Shown in pieces: positions 44 through 21,659 of a stretch of 64,000 nt of DNA. This DNA is from a virus. The translations under genes and the position numbers were made by a program. The DNA lies in IMG/VR virus record IMGVR_UViG_3300021498_000001, positions 1 through 64,000 of that record; one strand, given 5' to 3'. Position 1 is the stretch's first letter. Each line of letters starts with the position of its first letter. The notes under the pieces were generated by a model that saw nothing but the letters and a program-made list of their open reading frames with translations, had not been told where the DNA came from and made no database searches.

Positions 44-373
44 TTACCTTGTCCCTATAATGCACTCAATAGGGACATTGATTTTTTCCTCCACCGCCGC
101 TGGAAGGAATCGGCGGGGAAGGAATTTAATCCTTTTAAAATTGGAGTACTTGGCCAAGATTTGATTGGCCAAGTCTTTGGTGACATAAGCAAGTCTAGGT
201 GAAAAAGCCACCAATAGTATGCCGTGTCCCTCTCCTGTAGTGCTGTCAACAAACATCCGCACAGGGATGCTTGCCCAGGCCTTTGCGTTTGTACTATTCG
301 TGCTATTTGAGGACTTGGGCAACTGAGGGACATCTTTAAAACCCCTTACATAGTTACCGAGTTTAATCTGCAT
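44..373 (-). CDS. Hypothetical protein, 109 aa
   Basis: No family is recognised. The protein starts MQIKLGNYVRGF and ends with a basic stretch (KRIKFLPRRFLP) before VPIECIIGTR. A longer reading from a TTG near 454 is possible. I prefer the ATG at 373 because it follows a GAGGTG ribosome site, and because the upstream codons would lie inside a rho-independent terminator (437-480) and the conserved leader element (390-423). It is the last of three separately led and terminated minus-strand genes. Confidence 0.6.
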   Translation of the reverse strand: MQIKLGNYVRGFKDVPQLPKSSNSTNSTNAKAWASIPVRMFVDSTTGEGHGILLVAFSPRLAYVTKDLANQILAKYSNFKRIKFLPRRFLPAAVEEKINVPIECIIGTR

Positions 374-389
374 CTTGCACCTCTTAAGA

Positions 390-423
390 CTGGCCTTAGA
401 ATTTAAGGGCTTATGCCCACCAG
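390..423 (-). promoter_or_regulatory. Structured leader element, copy A
   Basis: Read on the minus strand this is CTGGTGGGC, a small loop, GCCC, TTAAA, a 7-nt variable part, then GGCCAG. CTGG at the 5' end can pair with CCAG at the 3' end and GGGC with GCCC inside, giving a compact double-stem RNA. It lies 16 nt before the ATG at 373. Two other copies (1060-1095 and 1606-1641) precede the next two genes. Confidence 0.6.
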
Positions 424-436
424 TCTGTTTGTCAAA

Positions 437-480
437 ACAAAAAAGGCCAGCCAACGGGTTTTAAACCCGTGACTGGCCTT
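437..480 (-). terminator. Strong rho-independent terminator
   Basis: A nested inverted repeat is present: AAGGCCAG pairs with CTGGCCTT outside, and ACGGGTTT with AAACCCGT inside. On the minus strand it is followed by a six-T tract (439-444 read as A on plus). It ends transcription of the gene at 518-1006. A second short GC stem at 486-502 overlaps the region directly downstream of that stop codon. Confidence 0.8.
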
Positions 481-517
481 GCTGTGAGGGCCCAAGGCCC
501 TCATTGCTTTGCCAAAA

Positions 518-1006
518 CTAACTTAACTTAACACCTAAGAAAACAGCAGTAGCAATGATATCACTGTTGCAAGATTTTCGTAATCTATCTTCAATACGTC
601 TACGGATTTTCTTTATATCTAAAGGCTGGACTGGATAAATTGAAGCAAGATACCGCTCATCTGGTCGTCTTTCCCAAGTACAATAGTTGAATTCCTTTTC
701 TATAATGTATGCTACATCTTGGTAATTAATACCTTCTTCTTTTAGGAATTCAGCAACTGTCATGCCATAATCATTATTCCACTGTTCTCCAGAACCAGTT
801 GAACCAGAAGAGTCGTAGGGCACTTCTAGTAGCTTGCCATCTTTAGTCAAGACATAATAAATCGTACCTTCTGCACTATTGCCGTCGCACCAACTGTAAC
901 TATCTTCATACCCCTTTGTACTCCACACACGATTAGGACAATAATCATGAACATCAACGTGGTAACCTCTGTCCCTTAGGTCTTTAATCACTTCTTGTAA
1001 GGTCAT
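518..1006 (-). CDS. Hypothetical protein, 162 aa
   Basis: No family is recognised. The protein is soluble and acidic in its middle, with a Gly/Ser-rich turn (SSGSTGSGEQW) and a basic C-terminal helix (KKIRRRIEDRLRKS). The start ATG at 1006 follows a long purine-rich leader (GGGAAGGGGAAGGGAGAGAAAAG) that serves as ribosome site. It is bounded by its own leader element (1060-1095) and terminator (437-480), so it can be controlled separately from its neighbours. Confidence 0.65.
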   Translation of the reverse strand: MTLQEVIKDLRDRGYHVDVHDYCPNRVWSTKGYEDSYSWCDGNSAEGTIYYVLTKDGKLLEVPYDSSGSTGSGEQWNNDYGMTVAEFLKEEGINYQDVAYIIEKEFNYCTWERRPDERYLASIYPVQPLDIKKIRRRIEDRLRKSCNSDIIATAVFLGVKLS

Positions 1007-1059
1007 CTTTTCTCTCCCTTCCCCTTCCCTTGCCTAAGCATTGGCTTGGGGAAGGAGTG

Positions 1060-1095
1060 CTGGCGGTGAACCTTTAAGGGCCTTTGGCCCACCAG
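1060..1095 (-). promoter_or_regulatory. Structured leader element, copy B
   Basis: On the minus strand it reads CTGGTGGGCC, AAA, GGCCC, TTAAA, a variable part, then CGCCAG. The outer CTGG/CCAG and inner GGGCC/GGCCC pairings are kept although the bases between differ from copies A and C. It lies 53 nt before the ATG at 1006. A second stem (CTTCCCC with GGGGAAG) sits between it and the start codon. Confidence 0.6.
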
Positions 1096-1104
1096 CCTCC
1101 TTTT

Positions 1105-1587
1105 TTAACCCGTCAAGCTGGCCTTATCAAACCACTCTTGTAAGACTTTTCCAGCCAAAAGCTGGCCCTTATAATTGGTCATATAAGGGCCGAAAGCAAT
1201 CGAGAAGAGTTCTCTAACAGTTCTTTCATCAACAGAGTCTCCAAATTTAACTTCAGAGACCTCAGAATTAAGAATTAACCCAGTTAAGATTTTATCCAAT
1301 TGATGAAATAAACAGAAAGAGCCTCTGGGTGCAAAGAAACGCACCTGAGGCTTTCTTTTTGAGATTTGGATAATTCTACCTGAGACGGTTTTAAAAATGA
1401 TGAGATTTTCATTTTCCTTAACTACGGGACTACAATCAAAATCTTCATCATAAAGAACCTCGGGAACTTTCCTATAATCAGTAACTCCCCAGACAACTGC
1501 CGAGACTGCATTGGCTATAGTCTCGGCATCGGGGATGCCCTTTTGACATCCCTGAACTTTCCATATAGCTTTTTTTACTTTTTTCAT
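1105..1587 (-). CDS. Hypothetical protein, 160 aa
   Basis: No family is recognised. The N-terminus is very basic (MKKVKKAIWKVQG). Later segments include IPDAETIANAVSAVVWGV and an FGDSVDERTVRELFSIAFGPY region that looks helical. ATG at 1587 has a good GGGAGG ribosome site. It is the first annotated full-size gene downstream of the strong minus promoter at 1761-1789, with a leader of about 165 nt that holds leader element C and a possible small ORF. Confidence 0.65.
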   Translation of the reverse strand: MKKVKKAIWKVQGCQKGIPDAETIANAVSAVVWGVTDYRKVPEVLYDEDFDCSPVVKENENLIIFKTVSGRIIQISKRKPQVRFFAPRGSFCLFHQLDKILTGLILNSEVSEVKFGDSVDERTVRELFSIAFGPYMTNYKGQLLAGKVLQEWFDKASLTG

Positions 1588-1605
1588 CTTTCCTCCCTTT
1601 TTAAT

Positions 1606-1641
1606 CTGGCCCTATAAGTTTAAAGCCCTTTGGGCTACCAG
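1606..1641 (-). promoter_or_regulatory. Structured leader element, copy C
   Basis: On the minus strand it reads CTGGTAGCCC, AAA, GGGCT, TTAAA, a variable part, then GGGCCAG. Relative to copy B the inner stem has changed on both sides (GGGCC/GGCCC to AGCCC/GGGCT), which is a compensatory change and supports a conserved RNA structure. It lies 18 nt before the ATG at 1587. Confidence 0.62.
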
Positions 1642-1754
1642 ACAAATAGTAAAAAAACAAAAAGGGAAGGGAATAACTCTTGCCTCTTTGGAGACCAGCT
1701 TTTTTTTGTCTCCATTTCGGCCGCCTTCCTCGTCCTCCCTTCCCTCATCCTCAT
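1635..1754 (-). CDS. Possible leaderless small ORF, 39 aa
   Basis: This open frame starts with ATG only 6 bp after the -10 box of the promoter at 1761-1789, where the transcript would begin. It codes an Arg/Lys-rich N-terminal half (MRMREGRTRKAAEMETKK) and a hydrophobic C-terminal tail (LFPSLFVFLLFVW) and ends inside leader element C. It could be a small basic membrane peptide or a leader peptide. The position relative to the promoter is the main support. Confidence 0.35.
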   Translation of the reverse strand: MRMREGRTRKAAEMETKKSWSPKRQELFPSLFVFLLFVW

Positions 1755-1760
1755 GCCTCC

Positions 1761-1789
1761 CTTATACCACACCCTCAGATTTTTGTCAA
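1761..1789 (-). promoter_or_regulatory. Strong sigma-70 promoter
   Basis: On the minus strand TTGACA (1784-1789) is followed after 17 bp by TATAAG (1761-1766). It drives the three minus genes toward the left edge. The predicted start is at about 1754, where an ATG occurs. Confidence 0.75.
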
Positions 1790-1885
1790 GCATTTTTTAT
1801 TAACCCAACTCAACGACTAGTTTAACTTAACAATCTTTCTTAGATAAACTAACTTAGACAATCTAACAAGGTTGATTCAGAAAAC

Positions 1886-8279: not shown

Positions 8280-9260
8280 CTATACCAATCTCCAAGAAGA
8301 ACCTGACCATCCTCCCTTGATTACTCCCTCATTCTTCACAAGAATTACATCATCAAACAGAGCAATAAAGTCTCTATAATTCACTTGCAATCTTGCAGAT
8401 GTATCGATTACTTCTGTAGTATAATTGCACCAAAACGAACATCCAGCAACTTTATCTCCCAAAGAAACTTCATGTATGGGATGCAAAAATGAATAACCCT
8501 CTTGCTGAATGTACTTGGCCTTACAAATGACTCCTACTTTCTCACTGCCACCAAAAAGAAGTCCTATAATTGGACGGTCAGGTGGAATAGAATTATCTGC
8601 ATATCTATCTACATGCTCAATTGTAGGATAATAAACTGCAAAATCAATATGGTTGACTGGCTCTCCTTGCGCAGTGAAATAAGTAGAGCTACCTAAGAGT
8701 TTGGCAAAAAGATTCAAGACAAAGAGAATGGCTTTAGAAATTGGACAAACCTCTGTAATAGGCACAACTCTTTTATGCCAAGCATATTCTCCACAAACTC
8801 TGCAAGGCTTGTGGTGATATGGGCCTGGCTGGCATATTCTTTTTTCTGTCACTTCTTCGGGCTTTAGAGACGCATTGGGCGTGAGTACGTGCGCATTTGA
8901 ACAAGCATACATTTGGCTATCTTTTACACAAAGTAGCCCTAAAGAACCTGCGGTAATATCTTTGTGCCCCACAGAAGTGCCTAAAGGTATAGGCTCAAAA
9001 GGCTTGGTTTTATCTACTTTCTCTCCCTCTAATGCGTTAACCTCACCTATCTCTACAACATCTACTCTAATTCCTTCAATTTCTCTAGGAATGATATCCT
9101 TCTTATGCAGATACTCCACAGGCACTTTCTTTTTCACATAGACTCTAATCCCTTTCTCTGCAATAGGCTTTCCTTCTACCAGAATTGGCATTAGTGTCTT
9201 GGAGCAACCAATCACATTGCGCTTAGTTTTTAATTTGCGATATACATTGTCAATTTTCAT
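8280..9260 (-). CDS. Trypsin-like serine protease, 326 aa
   Basis: The domain from about residue 90 has the signs of a chymotrypsin-fold protease: TAGSLGLLCVKDSQMYACSNAHVL with candidate His124, HIDFAVY with Asp206, and the C-terminal GGWSGSSW with Ser319 in a GxSG motif. The N-terminal 85 residues (KLKTKRNVIGCS onward) form an extra strand-rich domain, which with the QPGP motif recalls bacterial Nal1-like peptidases. I start at ATG 9260, after AAGGAGG and 2 nt past the upstream stop. Target unknown; possibly a virion or host protein. Confidence 0.75.
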   Translation of the reverse strand: MKIDNVYRKLKTKRNVIGCSKTLMPILVEGKPIAEKGIRVYVKKKVPVEYLHKKDIIPREIEGIRVDVVEIGEVNALEGEKVDKTKPFEPIPLGTSVGHKDITAGSLGLLCVKDSQMYACSNAHVLTPNASLKPEEVTEKRICQPGPYHHKPCRVCGEYAWHKRVVPITEVCPISKAILFVLNLFAKLLGSSTYFTAQGEPVNHIDFAVYYPTIEHVDRYADNSIPPDRPIIGLLFGGSEKVGVICKAKYIQQEGYSFLHPIHEVSLGDKVAGCSFWCNYTTEVIDTSARLQVNYRDFIALFDDVILVKNEGVIKGGWSGSSWRLV

Positions 9261-14245: not shown

Positions 14246-15565
14246 ATGCCTTATTTCATTAAAAAATCTCCTGAAAAACCTGCACGTTTCTACGAAGCAA
14301 CTTCTACTAGACTCTCTTTGCCTGGACAAGAGGAAACCAAATCTGAGGATTGGCCTGGGTGGAGAAGATTAACAGGTGCAGCTCCTCTTAGAGAACTTAA
14401 GCCTGGAATCTTTGAAAGAATGAGTCGTATAGCCAAATGGCTGTATGACTCTAATCCTCTTGCAAAGAGAATTATTGAATATATCAAGAATTTTGTTGTA
14501 GGTGAGGGTATCTACTTTGATGCAGAGGATGCCAGAGTTAAAGAGATACTGGATGCATTTTGGTATGATGATGTTAATAATTGGCCTCTAAGACAGCATG
14601 ACAGAATCTTAGAGCTCTGTTTATATGGAGAGAGTATCTGGCCTGTCACAGTAAATCCTTCTAATGGACATGTAAGATTGGGATTTATTGACCCTTTAGA
14701 TGTAAAAGAAGTCGTGCCTAATGAGGACAATTGCTTGATTCTAGAAAAGATAGTCTTGGCAAGGCCAATTCATGGAAAGACAGAGCTGTCTATTATAAGG
14801 CGAGATGAAAATCCAAATAGCGATACTTTTGGATATCTCTCAGGTGAATGTTTCTTCTTCGCAATCAATAAAGTAAGTAATGCAACAAGAGGAGCAAGTG
14901 ACCTCTTGCCTCTAATAGATTGGATAGATGCCTACGACCAGTTTCTCTTTACAAGACTAGAGCGACAAATGAATATCAATAACTTCTGCTGGGATGTTAC
15001 ATTAGAGGGAGCAGATAAGTATGAGATAGAGCAATTTCTTAAGAATCTGCCTCCACCTACTCCAGGTACAGTAAGAGTTCACAATGAAAAGGTAACTTGG
15101 AATGTTGTTGCGCCTAAACTTGAGGCAAGAGATGCAAACCAAGAGAGCAGGCTTATAAGAAACCATATCCTAAGTGGTGCAGGTTTTCCTCCTTACTATT
15201 TTGCAGATACAGAAGGTGTGAGAGCTGTTGCTTATGAGCAGGCATTTCCTACAGAGAAAATGCTTATTACCAGACAGAAATACTTCAAAGCAATGATTGA
15301 GTATGTCTTTAACTTTGTTATAGACCAAGCCATTATTCACAAAAGACTGCCTGCAAATGTAAATCGCAAGTTTGAAATTGTATTTCCAGAAATATCTCTA
15401 AGGGATGTAGAGAGATTAAGCAGGGCACTTAAAAATGTAACTCTTTCTTTAGAGCACTTACAGCAAAATGGATTGGTTACAAATAGAGAGGCAAAAAAGA
15501 TAATAAGAAACTTGCTTAGTCAAATGGGATTGGAGTTAGAGGAGTTAAATGGAAGAAAAGGATAA
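14246..15565 (+). CDS. Phage portal protein, 439 aa
   Basis: This forms the dodecameric ring at the capsid vertex through which DNA passes. Evidence is its place after terL, its length, and portal-like features: an N-terminal wing (WLYDSNPLAKRIIEYIKNFVVG), a central crown/stem region (LPLIDWIDAYDQFLFTRLERQMNI), and a GVRAVAYEQAFPTEKMLITRQ segment like that in SPP1/HK97-type portals. Its end overlaps the start of the next very large gene by 17 nt. Confidence 0.85.
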   Translation: MPYFIKKSPEKPARFYEATSTRLSLPGQEETKSEDWPGWRRLTGAAPLRELKPGIFERMSRIAKWLYDSNPLAKRIIEYIKNFVVGEGIYFDAEDARVKEILDAFWYDDVNNWPLRQHDRILELCLYGESIWPVTVNPSNGHVRLGFIDPLDVKEVVPNEDNCLILEKIVLARPIHGKTELSIIRRDENPNSDTFGYLSGECFFFAINKVSNATRGASDLLPLIDWIDAYDQFLFTRLERQMNINNFCWDVTLEGADKYEIEQFLKNLPPPTPGTVRVHNEKVTWNVVAPKLEARDANQESRLIRNHILSGAGFPPYYFADTEGVRAVAYEQAFPTEKMLITRQKYFKAMIEYVFNFVIDQAIIHKRLPANVNRKFEIVFPEISLRDVERLSRALKNVTLSLEHLQQNGLVTNREAKKIIRNLLSQMGLELEELNGRKG

Positions 15566-18500
15566 TTTAGATAGGCTAAGCGAGCTTCATTTAGAGCAGT
15601 TTAGAAAAGAAGGGATTGATTACGACCTTAAGAATCCTCAAACTAGATGGAAACAACTCTATGCAGACCTTCGTTACATCTTTGACTCTGGTCTGCCTAG
15701 AATTTGGAAAGGGAAAAAATGGGGAGATTGGACAGAAGAAGACTGTCTTAGATATGCAGGCAAGATTATAGATGCCTTGCGTTCAGTTTATTTTCCTTTA
15801 ATCCCACCTTCCAAGAATGACCCCAGATACAACACAAGCTACTGGAAAGCCTATCGCAAGGCAGAAGAGAAGGGATATGTCAAATCCAAGCCTCCCAAAT
15901 CAGAAGAACTACCTGAATGGGATAAAAAGCGCAAAGAGATAATCAAGACCTCTTTAGAAGAAGCAGAGAGAAAATTAGATGGACTTTATTTAACACCTCC
16001 ACATGGTGAGCTTTTCTGGACTGATGAAAAGAAGTTGCTCGTGAAAACAAAGGAGTTTGACTTATCCAAGCCTCATTATCTTATAGAAGATGGATACTGC
16101 TATGGCATTATCTCATTTAAGAAGCCTAAAGAAATAACTAAACAGCAATTCTTCTCTGAAGAGTTTAAGAAAAAACATCGCATTTTGGATACAGAAGCTT
16201 GGCAATGGTGGAGAATGACGAGGGACAATGCAGTGGAGCCTAAGCTGTATGCTTATGAGATAAAAGAATTCAAACCTTTTGATGTACCTAGAAGAGTGAG
16301 AGTGCCTAAGGGCATACAGGTTATTGTGAAGGCAGACAATATTGAATTTGTGAGTGAAGATGAAGAGAAACCTGCAAAGATTGATTGGCCTACAATGGCA
16401 GCAAAGGAGGCAAAGACTGATTTTATTAAATTCTATGGTACAAAAGGATATATAGAAGAGGAGAGTGAAAGACATAAATATCATACCTGTATTTTATTTT
16501 CTCTAAATGACACAAATATCTTGTTAGATTATGGAGAAAGGCATCCAGCAGAGATAGAAGAAAGAGTGGATGTAGTATTGAACTCGCATCGGCACGTCGA
16601 TCATATATGCCCTGAAACAGTCAACTTTGCTTGCCCTTTATATGTATCTCAGCAAACTTTAGAAAGAGTAGATTTTCCTCTGCCTGAAGACATTAGAGTC
16701 TATCGGCCCAGAGAACCTTTTAAAATCGACAATATAGAAATCACTGCCTATCCAGTTTACCACTCTATTCGTGCTCCTATGCATATCTTCAAAATCGAAA
16801 CAGACAATCTTGCCATAGGAGTAATGACTGATTTTTTGGGATTTAGAGACAAGAATGATGAGGACTCCTTTTATCCAGATTTAGACATTGTAATTATAGA
16901 TGGCAGTAGCATTACAAGAGATTTAAGGCGATGGAGAGAAGAGCATGACGAGCCTTTTGGACATGAGAGTGTAATACACCAGATAGAAAGGATTAGAGAT
17001 AAGTGTGAGAAAAATCCTGTAATAATCCTCACTCATATAGGCAATGAAGGACTTGAGCTAGGTGATGAGAGAATTCTAGAGTTATTGTCAGAGCAATTTC
17101 CTAATATGAGGATATATGTTGCCAAAGATGGCAGTATATTTGATTTGAAGACAAAGCGATTTACAGAAGCATTCAAAGGAGAACAAATCTGCAAAGATAT
17201 AGTTGCAAACTTGCCTTCCTTTACATGGATACCTGAATTTGTAAGCATAACAGGCTCTACCTTATTTACAAAAGACCATGCGCCTAGAGATTTAGATGTG
17301 ATGTGCAAGGCAGAAGAAATAAATGGAAAGTGGTATATACCTGTGGATACTTCTTTATTACTTAAACTGCAACGAGCGTATCAATATGCAACAAAGAAAG
17401 TATTAGGTAAGGCAATTAAAGCTGACTTTCCTCCTCCCTCGTTGATAGGCCCAAATTGGTGTGTTGATGATAAAACTGAGATTTTAACCAAGGATAGAGG
17501 TTGGGTATTATTCAAAGACTTAAAGGAATCAGACTTAGTAGCTACAGTATCAAAGGACGACTATTTAGAATTTCAGAAACCAATAAGATATTTCTCTAAT
17601 TTCTATAAAGGAAAAATGATTCATATCAAGAATAAGAATATAGATTTATTGGTCACTCCAGAACATAAGGTTATCTATTATCCATGTTTCACGAGAAATA
17701 AAAAACGAATCATATCTGAAGAATGGCAGATGATAGAAGCTCAGAAACTCCTTGAAATGAAAGGAAGAATTTATTTGAAACTAGGATGCAAATGGAAAGG
17801 TGATGGTGATTCAATATTTTGGATTCCACCCTGTATTGGATACAACATGAAGTTAGAACCGCCAGTACCAATTGATATGGAAGATTTTGCTATGTTTATG
17901 GGATGGTATTTATCTGAAGGAAGTGTTCACATTACACCAAAACAAGTTTACTCCGTCTGTATTGCACAATATGAAGACTCTCCTAAGTTTCAAGAATTAA
18001 AGGAATTACTATCTCGCTTGCCATTTGACTTTAAAGAAGTAAGAGGGAACCAAGACAATCCAGAAAAGATTACTGGATTTTGTTGCAAATCGAAACAGTT
18101 AGCTTTATATCTTAAACAATTTGGTAAATGTTATGATAAGTTTATTCCTAATGAAATTAAGAATCAAAAACCAGAAATACTGAAAAGATTTTTAGAATGT
18201 TATTTCTATGGCGATGGACATTTGAGAAAAAGAGCAAAAGGACTGTATGTTGCTAAAACTGTATCTGAACGCTTAGCTGGTGACCTGCAAGAAATTGGCT
18301 TGAAGCTAGGAATTAGAGTCTCCTATAATAAGGAAGGAAATGGAAAACGAAGAAGAATCTACATTGGTAATTTCACTCTTGAATCTAAGTGGAAAAGCAA
18401 AATGAGGCAATTATGTCGTGTTTGTCTTGAGCTTGGACATGTAAAGGAAGTACCATATGAAGGAATGATATATGCAGTTGAAGTGCCTAATGGTATTGTT

Positions 18501-21500
18501 ATTGTTAGGAGAAACTTTAGATTTTGTGTGACTGGTAACTCTTCCATTCCTGCCTACGATTTAAAACTTGTCCCCAGAAAAAATCCAGAAGTAAGAAGGA
18601 CAGGAGAAGAAGAGTTTGAAGAGAAGGTTTATGGAGTGGATTTTAAAGAAAAGCTACGCCTTCGCACCAAATCCAAAGATATTGAAAAAATGGCTCAACA
18701 GTCCCTAGAAGAAGATAAAGTTAAACCTCTTCGCTTCTTTATGCCTCTCAAACCTATAAGAGTGCAGGGCAAACATGGAGAAAGGAATACGCCTGAAAGA
18801 TTGGTAGAGCTATTTGAGCCTCAGCATTATCCTGTATATAACTCAGTCAAGAGGGATGGTTTCAGGGCCATCCTAATGTACGATGGAAATAAGGTTGTCA
18901 TTTACTCAGAAGATGGCAATGACATTACAGACCAATTGCCTACAATTGTAGAAGCAATCAAAAAACTCAAGGTTAAATCAGTCATTCTGGATGCTGAGAT
19001 TGAACTCTGGGAAAATGGACAGCATCATCCAAGAGAGGCAGCAATTGCTAAAATTCACTCCAAAGCAATAGAAGATGAGAATTTGATTGCCAATATTTTT
19101 GACTGTGTCTATCTAAATGGCCAAGACTTACACAAAGAACCTTTTGAAAAGAGATGGAAGGCATTAAATTCTATTGGCATTAAATATTCAAAGGAGACCA
19201 GCCTAGACCCAAAGCAGAAACTCAATATCATACCTCATATCCCATGCAATACACCCAAAGAGCTTCTTAAAGAGACAGAACGAATGAGAAGAGTGAAATC
19301 GAGTGAAGGATGTGTGGCCATTGCACACAATGCTGTATATCCTTTGGATGGAAAGCCAGAAGGTAACTCTTTCTGTAAGTTTCATAATAATGTGGTTGTG
19401 AGAGGGATAGTAGTACAACCAGTCGAAACACGAACCAGCGGCGTATTTAATTTGACCTGGGGTTGTTTAGCAGAAGGCCACGAAATCTTAAAGAAAGACC
19501 AGACAGAAGTAGGGCCTTATGAAAAGGTCTTAGTTATAGGCAGCACTTTTGCAGCACCTTATGTAAAAAGAGGAGCTGTTATTGAGGTTGAGTGTGAGAC
19601 AATCAATCATATCATCCATGAAGATATAGAAGGCAAACCTATAGAGATTACAGCTTGGGCACCCAGATTTATGCGAGTGGTACCTGGAGCAAAGCCAGAC
19701 AGCATAGATGATATTTTAAGAAAAGCAAGGAAAGAAAATCATGTTTTGCAGATTAAAATAGTTAAACCTGATGGCACAGTAGAGTACAGAGAGTCAAAGA
19801 AAGAACTCCTTTGCTTTCTTACAGAAGAACCTACTTTAGAGAGTCAGATAAGCGATAGATTTGGCGCAGCCAAATATGCTGTGTTCTTTGAACCTGCTAC
19901 TTATCACTTTGAAGCAGTAGATTTGTCTAATTTTAGAACAGGTGTAGAGATTGCAGATTTAATAAAGCAGCATCAGGCAACTAAAGTCATTACAAATCAA
20001 ATAGGAAGATTTAGCAGAGACGAATTAGAAAAAGCTGGCATTGAGATTGATTTTGCAGAGGGAAGGGTGAGTGATTATTTGAAAAAGGAGCTGGGAGAGA
20101 GTCCTTTGGTAAAGGAGGCAGAAATAAGGGAGCAGGGTGACCCATATATGCAGTATTTCGATGAGGATAAAGAGCATAGAGTGTGCAACCAGAGGCATTA
20201 TAGATTTGCTCTTAAGGACATACTCAAAGAGACTGGAATGGAAGATGAATGGCCTGATGAGTGGACAGAAGAAGATTGGCGAAAAAATTGGGATTCTTGG
20301 AAAAGAAGAGTATATCCAAAATTAAGGAAATATTTTGAAACTCATCCTGAATATGAGCATAGTCCTTCAACTCATGTAGATCAAAGATATGAGACAGATA
20401 GTGGTGCATTGATTGGATGGACTATATTGGATTCACTGCCAGATAGACCTAAAGTGCCTCCTCTTTCTTTGGAGGATGCCAAAAAGTTTGATAGAGATCC
20501 TTCTAATTGGAAGATTGATTGGAACACAGGTGAATGGGCTTGGCGTGAAAAAAAAGGTGGAGCAAAGGCAAGAATTTCAATTGTAGTAAGGAAAAAGTCA
20601 CCAGAGCCCCTAGACTGGCTCACTTTTGAGGGTGAACAGCCCCCCAAATCGGTTGGTGCAACAGCTTATGGCCCTGCTATCTTTACTCACATTACTCCTT
20701 TAGGAGTAGTTGAGACGCTCAGCCAGAAAAGTTACATGCATGAATACTATCTCACATTTCCCAATTTTAAATGGCATATAGTATTTCGTCTTTTGAGGAA
20801 ACCATTTGTGCAGAAAGAATCATTTAAGGAAGCACTGAGAACACAAGATTATGAGCGTCTTTCAGAAATGGTTGAATTAGAAGAAGGCGAATCTTTAGAA
20901 GAAGGCTTGTATCTAGAAGCTAAGAGATTTATTCCAGTTTCTAAGGGCGGGTGGGGGCTGGAGGAAAGTGGATGGGTAGCTATTTATGTCACAAGAGAAC
21001 CCTATGTTATTTCAAAGCGTGCAGTACAATTGAAATGGATTCCACCTTATCCCTACAGCGCCCTCCCTCGCCATATCAAGAAACAAATCCCACCTGAATA
21101 TCACTACTGGAAAGAAAAGGATATGCAAAAGCGCATAGAGATAAGGGATGCTCTTGTTAAAGCTATCAAAGAAAAGAAAGTTGTATTGAAGGAGAGTATT
21201 GTAAGAGACTTTAAACTTGACTTTCACTGGAGCGAACCTGCTGAGTTGGTGAAGCGTCGCAGCCCCGCCCACAAACATTGGGACCTTCGAATCGATGGCG
21301 ACCTCAAAAAGAAAACAGGTTATATCTTCCACGCAGTCTTAGAACTCAATCCCTTAGAAGTTGACTCTACTTCTGCATATCTCAAGAAATGCAAAGGAGA
21401 TGAAGGCGGCATTGATTGGATGAACGTGGGCAAAGAAAAGACAGTTAAATTCACAAAGGGCCCAGGAACATTTGAAAAGAATGAGCCAGGGTACATAAGA

Positions 21501-21659
21501 GCATTGGATTGGGGCAGAGTTTTAGTGCTTGAAGACTCTCCTCTCTTTAAGAAGTTTCAATTTAAGGGCAAAAAATTAAAAGGTATCTGGATTATGTACA
21601 GAAGCAGTCCAGATACAGATATTTGGATATTTGAAAAGAGTAAGAATATAGGCAAATAA
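15549..21659 (+). CDS. 2036-aa multidomain protein: MBL nuclease, nucleotidyltransferase, intein, DNA ligase, NifX-like, LigD-PE-like
   Basis: Domains in order: an unrecognised helical N-terminus (1-300); a metallo-beta-lactamase domain with HxHxDH at 347-352; a pol-beta-type nucleotidyltransferase with GS at 569-570 and DLD at 581-583; an intein at 638-997; an ATP-dependent ligase/nucleotidyltransferase core (KRDG with Lys1101, LDAE with Glu1150, EG motif IV near 1253, Lys1277); a NifX/dinitrogenase-cofactor-like domain at about 1420-1512; then two LigD phosphoesterase-like motifs, THVDQR (1608-1613) and HKHWDLR (1908-1914). The combination suggests DNA end processing and sealing. It overlaps the portal gene and precedes the capsid gene, so it is expressed late and might be packaged. 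Mature length after splicing would be 1676 aa. Confidence 0.8.
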   Translation: MEEKDNLDRLSELHLEQFRKEGIDYDLKNPQTRWKQLYADLRYIFDSGLPRIWKGKKWGDWTEEDCLRYAGKIIDALRSVYFPLIPPSKNDPRYNTSYWKAYRKAEEKGYVKSKPPKSEELPEWDKKRKEIIKTSLEEAERKLDGLYLTPPHGELFWTDEKKLLVKTKEFDLSKPHYLIEDGYCYGIISFKKPKEITKQQFFSEEFKKKHRILDTEAWQWWRMTRDNAVEPKLYAYEIKEFKPFDVPRRVRVPKGIQVIVKADNIEFVSEDEEKPAKIDWPTMAAKEAKTDFIKFYGTKGYIEEESERHKYHTCILFSLNDTNILLDYGERHPAEIEERVDVVLNSHRHVDHICPETVNFACPLYVSQQTLERVDFPLPEDIRVYRPREPFKIDNIEITAYPVYHSIRAPMHIFKIETDNLAIGVMTDFLGFRDKNDEDSFYPDLDIVIIDGSSITRDLRRWREEHDEPFGHESVIHQIERIRDKCEKNPVIILTHIGNEGLELGDERILELLSEQFPNMRIYVAKDGSIFDLKTKRFTEAFKGEQICKDIVANLPSFTWIPEFVSITGSTLFTKDHAPRDLDVMCKAEEINGKWYIPVDTSLLLKLQRAYQYATKKVLGKAIKADFPPPSLIGPNWCVDDKTEILTKDRGWVLFKDLKESDLVATVSKDDYLEFQKPIRYFSNFYKGKMIHIKNKNIDLLVTPEHKVIYYPCFTRNKKRIISEEWQMIEAQKLLEMKGRIYLKLGCKWKGDGDSIFWIPPCIGYNMKLEPPVPIDMEDFAMFMGWYLSEGSVHITPKQVYSVCIAQYEDSPKFQELKELLSRLPFDFKEVRGNQDNPEKITGFCCKSKQLALYLKQFGKCYDKFIPNEIKNQKPEILKRFLECYFYGDGHLRKRAKGLYVAKTVSERLAGDLQEIGLKLGIRVSYNKEGNGKRRRIYIGNFTLESKWKSKMRQLCRVCLELGHVKEVPYEGMIYAVEVPNGIVIVRRNFRFCVTGNSSIPAYDLKLVPRKNPEVRRTGEEEFEEKVYGVDFKEKLRLRTKSKDIEKMAQQSLEEDKVKPLRFFMPLKPIRVQGKHGERNTPERLVELFEPQHYPVYNSVKRDGFRAILMYDGNKVVIYSEDGNDITDQLPTIVEAIKKLKVKSVILDAEIELWENGQHHPREAAIAKIHSKAIEDENLIANIFDCVYLNGQDLHKEPFEKRWKALNSIGIKYSKETSLDPKQKLNIIPHIPCNTPKELLKETERMRRVKSSEGCVAIAHNAVYPLDGKPEGNSFCKFHNNVVVRGIVVQPVETRTSGVFNLTWGCLAEGHEILKKDQTEVGPYEKVLVIGSTFAAPYVKRGAVIEVECETINHIIHEDIEGKPIEITAWAPRFMRVVPGAKPDSIDDILRKARKENHVLQIKIVKPDGTVEYRESKKELLCFLTEEPTLESQISDRFGAAKYAVFFEPATYHFEAVDLSNFRTGVEIADLIKQHQATKVITNQIGRFSRDELEKAGIEIDFAEGRVSDYLKKELGESPLVKEAEIREQGDPYMQYFDEDKEHRVCNQRHYRFALKDILKETGMEDEWPDEWTEEDWRKNWDSWKRRVYPKLRKYFETHPEYEHSPSTHVDQRYETDSGALIGWTILDSLPDRPKVPPLSLEDAKKFDRDPSNWKIDWNTGEWAWREKKGGAKARISIVVRKKSPEPLDWLTFEGEQPPKSVGATAYGPAIFTHITPLGVVETLSQKSYMHEYYLTFPNFKWHIVFRLLRKPFVQKESFKEALRTQDYERLSEMVELEEGESLEEGLYLEAKRFIPVSKGGWGLEESGWVAIYVTREPYVISKRAVQLKWIPPYPYSALPRHIKKQIPPEYHYWKEKDMQKRIEIRDALVKAIKEKKVVLKESIVRDFKLDFHWSEPAELVKRRSPAHKHWDLRIDGDLKKKTGYIFHAVLELNPLEVDSTSAYLKKCKGDEGGIDWMNVGKEKTVKFTKGPGTFEKNEPGYIRALDWGRVLVLEDSPLFKKFQFKGKKLKGIWIMYRSSPDTDIWIFEKSKNIGK
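17460..18539 (+). mobile_element. LAGLIDADG intein, 360 aa, inside the multidomain protein
   Basis: The intein begins with Cys638 (CVDDKTEILTKDRGW, block A). It has a block B TPEH motif (LLVTPEHKVIY), two LAGLIDADG helices (MFMGWYLSEGSVHI and FLECYFYGDGHL) of a homing endonuclease, and a C-terminal block (EGMIYAVEVPNGIVIVRRNF then FCVTGN). It ends in Asn997 with Ser998 as the first extein residue. The residue before the terminal Asn is Gly rather than the usual His, a known variation that can slow splicing. The insertion point lies between the nucleotidyltransferase and ligase domains. Confidence 0.92.

Follow-up and report, generated by a model that had tools for sequence, protein, structure and literature searches.

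Why should three unrelated genes of one phage carry the same short, foldable sequence ahead of their start codons? The question arises near the left end of a stretch of 64,000 nucleotides (here called the window), which forms part of the 72,622-base IMG/VR virus record IMGVR_UViG_3300021498_000001. An earlier note, made from the letters of the window, described three copies of a motif and took them for a cis-acting RNA through which one regulator acts on three separately terminated genes. We report here a computational analysis of this motif, of its further copies in the record and in related phages, and of the explanations that compete to account for it.

The phage is a tailed one, as its terminase, portal and capsid/protease genes indicate, and the top-ranked terminase among annotated phages is just 32% identical. 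The window also holds, at 15549-21659 (plus strand), a 2036-aa open frame in which weak stretches recall the DNA ligase, thymidylate synthase, metal-dependent hydrolase and PhoH families; the protein may be composite or may contain inserted domains.

Five copies of the motif in the phage record

The copies in the window are 34 to 36 nt long and share one layout. After CTGGT comes an inner stem with 4-5 pairs and an A-rich loop; TTAAA follows, then 7-8 variable letters, and GCCAG comes last. The first (c1, 423..390, minus strand) reads CTGGT-GGGC-ATAA-GCCC-TTAAA-TTCTAAG-GCCAG and precedes gene C (44..373, minus; 109 aa). The second (c2, 1095..1060, minus), CTGGT-GGGCC-AAA-GGCCC-TTAAA-GGTTCACC-GCCAG, starts 9 nt past the stop of gene A and precedes gene B (518..1006, minus; 162 aa), while the third (c3, 1641..1606, minus), CTGGT-AGCCC-AAA-GGGCT-TTAAA-CTTATAGG-GCCAG, stands before gene A (1105..1587, minus; 160 aa). 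The distances to the respective ATG codons are 16, 53 and 18 nt, within the 16-53 nt given in the earlier note, whose sequences, coordinates and pairings for these copies proved exact. All three genes encode orphan proteins. Two further copies lie in the record outside the window, also on the minus strand and 5' of a start codon: c4 (record 71778..71745) begins 20 nt past a stop codon and precedes a paralogue of gene C (record 71390-71725; 57% identity), and c5 (record 72424..72390) precedes a paralogue of gene B (record 71799-72332; 56% identity).

As RNA, the element has two stems. The outer one, of at least four pairs, is followed by a single U and then by the inner one, four or five pairs long under an A-rich loop of 3-4 nt; on the 3' side there is a one-sided internal loop, which opens with UUAAA. 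The inner stem is GGGC/GCCC with an AUAA loop in c1, GGGCC/GGCCC with an AAA loop in c2 and AGCCC/GGGCU with an AAA loop in c3, each followed by UUAAA, and these are the pairing-preserving changes on which the first description had been built. The outer stem is longer than was then thought. Its next outward pair is U-A in c3, G-C in c2 and A-U in c1, a compensatory series, and in c1 the stem CUGG/CCAG can be extended to GACUGG/CCAGUC. With a few flanking bases included, c1, c2 and c3 fold as described at 37 C (z -3.1, -2.0 and -1.4 against shuffles), and folding energy by itself is only modest evidence for their structure.

Recurrence is the stronger argument that the motif did not arise by chance. 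A search pattern with no requirement on the inner stem, CTGGT(10-16)TTAAA(4-12)GCCAG, has five matches in the 72,622-base record; these are exactly c1 to c5, every one of them on the minus strand and with an inner stem of 4-5 pairs. Two hundred dinucleotide shuffles of the record gave three matches altogether, or 0.015 per record, and this test, together with the blind pattern scans described below, leads us to reject a chance origin of the copies.

Copies in related phages and in wider scans

Scanning viral contigs with the motif letters, the inner stem again left free, gave five matches, of which one has both stems. This copy (L008), from the 47,550-base contig of a related phage, precedes a gene that has its C-terminal tail in common with gene B. 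A covariance model (R1) built from c2, c3 and L008 recovers the held-out c1, c4 and c5 at 33.5 to 37.3 bits (E 4e-6 to 3e-5; in another search c1 scored 33.5 bits, E 4.5e-5), and it also matches a divergent form in another contig, L019, at 25.6 bits (E 0.0037 over 244 kb). The earlier note had staked its reading on further copies existing in relatives, and the covariance model recovers such copies there. A weak match of model R2, which falls within a coding region at window 9183-9213 (minus; 18 bits, E 0.099), is probably due to chance.

In the divergent form, first seen in L019, the outer stem has become AUUGG/CCAAU. When this form was searched for, 15 matches came up, four of them with both stems (L109, L113, L118 and L119); L113 is the same contig as L019, and L118 and L119 share 99.8% identity over 12.9 kb, which leaves at most three independent divergent sequences. 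They precede a fourth gene family, D, whose proteins are 80-81% identical, and stand 20-23 nt from the start in the three measured. This form overlaps the end of the upstream coding region, which could alone explain the conservation of the L019 copy; between 15 and 37 of 1131 sequence windows in the region are as well conserved as the motif. A 13-base gap beside the motif in L109, which shifts the upstream reading frame and leaves the motif letters in place, favours a constraint on the RNA. We regard the divergent form as a probable, not a certain, version of the element. A scan for the form with an AUAA loop gave five matches, none with the inner stem.

A genome collection yielded 75 pattern matches, among them Erwinia/Pantoea/Kluyvera loci (L057, L083, L094, L096, L097 and L100). 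Three of the 75 have a 4-pair inner stem, one of these (L096) has the outer pair as well, and none of the three is followed by a Shine-Dalgarno-like sequence. The best scores there were 28.9 bits for R1 (L049) and 28.4 bits for R2 (L094); with R1 the divergent phage copy had scored lower, at 25.6 bits, but the genome-collection loci had been preselected for 18 of the fixed letters. None of the 75 is a convincing cellular copy of the element. Taking all 100 blind-scan matches from the viral and genome collections together, both stems and a Shine-Dalgarno-like sequence occur in only five, and the contigs of all five are homologous to this phage group at the nucleotide level.

The whole window was compared with Rfam 15 (4227 families) at the gathering threshold, and a tRNA alone matched; in evalue mode, region 370-1800 gave seven sub-threshold matches, all to unrelated families. 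Searches of open-licence papers turned up no account of such an element, which, on the strength of these papers and of Rfam 15, is previously uncatalogued. In the collections scanned it is a new RNA family of one phage lineage.

Both stems covary on the sense strand

Nine rows, representing eight distinct sequences, were aligned (alignment A4). All 75 cells (100%) hold standard pairs, against a shuffle mean of 80.6%, in an alignment that was fitted to the structure and thus leans toward pairing. Changes on both sides occur in 6 of the 10 pairs (shuffle mean 3.2), and the covariation score is 0.568 (shuffle mean 0.191). When the partners are slid by 1-3 columns, 19-55% of cells remain paired and at most one pair has changed on both sides. 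Less exceptional is the count of further pair types, which 47 of 500 shuffles also reached. For the inner stem there are checks free of such fitting, namely the inner-stem-free pattern in the record and the blind scans of the collections. The copies are few, and c1/c4 and c2/c5 stand before paralogous genes, which lowers the number of independent observations. Across the alignment, the outer core CUGG/CCAG is invariant in the six close copies and becomes UUGG/CCAA in the divergent ones, extended in each case by covarying pairs.

Two cells hold G-U pairs, one in the inner stem of L008 and one in the outer stem of c5. On the opposite strand these would be C-A, from which it follows that the folded molecule is the sense RNA. 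All nine copies measured lie on the coding strand, 16-57 nt 5' of an ATG. On the grounds of covariation, sense-strand pairing and fixed position, we are highly confident that the element is a cis-acting RNA. Compensatory changes in both stems, G-U pairs possible in the sense only, the constant place before start codons and the copies in relatives bear out this part of the original proposal.

Promoter, terminators and the layout of the cluster

A sigma-70-like promoter, TTGACA-17-TATAAG, lies upstream of c3 (1761..1789, minus); our consensus promoter scan omitted it because that scan demands T at the last place of the second hexamer. The surrounding block of about 147 bases (window 1723-1867) is repeated with 96.6% identity, in the same orientation, at the right end of the record (L101:8477-8622), which suggests a tandem duplication of the gene cluster in a circularly permuted genome. 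We infer the circular permutation; the record belongs to a group in which end repeats may not have been detected by IMG/VR. If the genome is so arranged, the five copies precede five consecutive genes, A, B, C, B' and C'.

Folding revealed, between gene B and c1 (443..478, minus), an intrinsic-terminator-like hairpin with a T-rich stretch behind it. Similar hairpins are found upstream of c5 and L008, a long-range one is predicted upstream of c3, and another follows gene C; none is seen upstream of c2 or c4, which lie between co-directional genes. The claim of three separately terminated genes therefore holds in part: there is a hairpin between genes B and C and one after C, but none was seen between A and B. 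A simple terminator scan listed neither the c1 nor the c5 hairpin, and the promoter and terminator consensus scans showed no excess over shuffles except for terminators in L008. The element itself does not have the stem-plus-T-run form of an intrinsic terminator, none of the nine copies measured being directly followed on the 3' side by a T-run. Two other candidate functions were rejected. A promoter inside the motif is suggested in c1 and c4 by a TTGA-like sequence 14 nt before CATAAG, which c2, c3 and L008 do not have; and upstream terminator arms (GGCCAG) that could pair with the motif have the required letters before c1, c2 and c5 only, these being absent before c3, c4 and L008.

A candidate translational operator

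We tentatively favour a translational operator bound by a protein regulator, to which we assign a probability of slightly under one half. A copy precedes each cistron, even in pairs that are apparently co-transcribed, which speaks against an action on the initiation of transcription and for one on each translation start or each stretch of mRNA. Since c2 and c4 lie between co-directional genes where no terminator is seen, a switch at the translation start is a better fit than transcriptional control. Invariant letters, found in stem and loop alike, speak for recognition by a factor. Five copies sharing these letters before three unrelated gene families make it plausible, judging from sequence, that one regulator acts on three genes, as had been proposed. 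We infer all three components of this reading: the action on translation, the protein ligand and the single regulator for all copies. A trans-acting factor, probably an RNA-binding protein of phage or host, would read the invariant letters in their two-stem context, and the element, which at genes A, C and D stands 16-23 nt ahead of the ATG, would modulate 30S binding cistron by cistron.

At gene B the element stands 53-57 nt from the ATG, and direct occlusion of the ribosome is less certain there. It would act there from behind a second hairpin that pairs with the Shine-Dalgarno sequence (1014..1057, minus), of the form CUCCUUCCCC-AA-GCC...GGC-AA-GGG... and reaching the Shine-Dalgarno region. 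This hairpin, CCUUCCC-AA-GCC...GGC-AA-GGGAAGG followed by GGAAGGAGG or similar, is kept in six gene-B leaders (c2, c5, L008, L018, L019 and L012). Five were folded at 37 C. The leaders of c5, L008, L018 and L019 pair CCUUCCC with the distal GGGAAGG and so cover the Shine-Dalgarno sequence; for c2 the covering hairpin is optimal at 65 C and a different fold is optimal at 37 C. The second hairpin is thus predicted to be able to sequester the Shine-Dalgarno sequence of gene B. Sequestration by the motif itself in all leaders was considered and rejected, as it was unseen in the folds of c1 and c4, and c3 has a competing fold at 37 C.

The main rival to the operator, though in our judgement an unlikely one, is an RNA-processing or mRNA-stability element, at which an endonuclease or a stabilising factor would separate or protect the cistrons of a polycistronic transcript. 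It accounts readily for one copy per gene, co-directional neighbours included, and for a fixed sequence within a hairpin that either kind of factor could read; moreover, the terminator-like hairpins upstream suggest that the ends and beginnings of transcripts matter. In role it would resemble the RNase III sites that lie between the early genes of T7, but typical RNase III substrates are much longer than the present element, with its 10 bp or so in all. Its placement follows start codons and Shine-Dalgarno sequences, and the invariant unpaired UUAAA and loop letters suggest specific binding. We place the translational operator ahead of it.

Gene exchange and a predicted alternative structure in relatives

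At the gene-B-type loci (window 518-1006, minus; L101:7799-8332, minus; L008:217-675, minus; L018:10001, plus; L019:9011, plus; L012:2204, minus), relatives have exchanged the body of the protein and kept its C-terminal end, some 32 residues long (KIRRRIEDVLRKS...VKLD), along with the hairpin in the leader. The gene-B-type leaders of L018, L019 and L012 are missing the motif and have instead ACCCGC..CCUACCGU..GCGGGU..ACGGUGGG (L018:9898-9940, plus; L019:8907-8951, plus; L012:2308-2265, minus). These segments may fold into an H-type pseudoknot where the motif would otherwise stand, a prediction made by eye from complementary segments, of a kind that ordinary folding cannot show and for which the three sequences are too alike to covary. 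The predicted pseudoknot is possibly a second, alternative RNA operator. A relative of gene A in L018 (49% identity over 144 aa) also has a leader without the motif, in which a terminator is directly followed by the Shine-Dalgarno sequence, with neither the motif nor the alternative structure. Related genes thus do without the motif, which must be dispensable or replaceable. The viral-contig query returned no relatives of gene A, the gene C alignment likewise found none, and neither gene had a match in phage records. L012 also contains, at about 2511-2490 (minus), GGGCTAGTATTTGCCAGCCAA after a terminator region that also precedes the L008 copy, perhaps a decayed copy minus its inner stem.

Such exchange could be read as the sign of a mobile regulatory cassette or recombination joint, a hairpin that marks the borders of gene shuffling and regulates only secondarily, as with the PeSLs discussed below. 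The 96.6% duplication of the promoter block, the gene-B leader and tail kept around an exchanged body, and the substitution, in three relatives, of a different structure at the very site of the element are all in its favour. A joint, however, needs sequence identity, whereas the inner-stem arms differ while their pairing is kept, and the element includes neither the promoter nor the T-run that a promoter-plus-terminator unit of the PeSL type would bring. We consider this explanation improbable.

Still less credit is due to a riboswitch, in which the UUAAA internal loop would be a pocket for a metabolite or ion and would alter access to the Shine-Dalgarno sequence. Invariant unpaired letters do adjoin covarying stems, and the gene-B leaders do have a neighbouring hairpin that pairs with the Shine-Dalgarno sequence, but no expression platform is common to all leaders. 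Furthermore, the element belongs to one phage group, with nothing convincing among the 75 genome-collection matches, and the orphan phage proteins behind it gave no family match to transporters or enzymes. As to a double-stranded DNA operator or promoter element for a DNA-binding regulator, a short repeat with invariant blocks upstream of genes is what one would expect, but the compensatory changes in both stems, the G-U pairs confined to the sense strand, the asymmetric arms and the copies between co-directional genes with no recognisable promoter make it scarcely tenable.

Comparison with known systems

Type III toxin-antitoxin systems consist of tandem repeats of a structured RNA of about 36 nt, then a terminator and then the toxin gene. 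The element resembles such antitoxin RNAs in that a structured RNA of about 36 nt, a terminator and a gene are close together; it differs in occurring as single copies, before several genes, and 3' of the terminator-like hairpin where there is one.

The closest parallels to a translational operator are found in phage T4, where, as PMC3014915 describes, gp32 (at a pseudoknot leader) and gp43 (at a hairpin) bind structured operators on their own mRNAs. The element shares with these a leader structure near the ribosome-binding site of a phage gene. Each T4 operator, in that account, is read by a phage protein and serves that protein's own gene. The present element, by contrast, is repeated in front of three or more unrelated gene families, and it folds neither like the gene 32 pseudoknot nor like the simple hairpin of gene 43. 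RegA, in the same account, represses many T4 mRNAs at A+U-rich sites that include the AUG and have no apparent structure. The likeness lies in one regulator at the translation starts of many phage mRNAs, which in our case is a proposed one; unlike the RegA sites as described there, the element has two G+C-rich stems and lies upstream of the Shine-Dalgarno sequence.

Two candidate phage cis-regulatory RNAs from comparative genomics, manA and wcaG, come from marine metagenomes and T4-like cyanophages, where they lie by metabolic genes (PMC2864571). They are of the same kind as the present element and belong to other lineages; for the present element Rfam gave no meaningful match. The PeSLs of T4-like myoviruses are mentioned in PMC4503421 as promoter-terminator units; like them, the element is a repeated stem-loop between shuffled phage genes. 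Unlike the PeSLs as mentioned there, it contains no promoter or terminator, its stems covary, and a neighbouring terminator is not present at all copies (PMC4503421).

Implications

A wider picture can be drawn, which we think rather unlikely to hold as a whole. The phage may possess an RNA regulon, in which one phage factor would recognise a two-stem operator before every cistron of an orphan-gene cluster and switch their translation together, and in which relatives would swap in a different RNA structure, the predicted H-type pseudoknot, so that whole operators would be exchanged like the DNA immunity regions of temperate phages. Taken simply as a translational operator, the element would join, in one system, a structured operator, as used by T4 gp32 and gp43, with the many targets of RegA, as PMC3014915 describes them. 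With a short structured RNA before each of its genes and an alternative structure in the corresponding position in relatives, the cluster would be a compact system for studying both the coordination of unrelated phage genes at the level of translation and the swapping of RNA operators, and the covariance model can be used to find and name this uncatalogued RNA family in uncultured phages.
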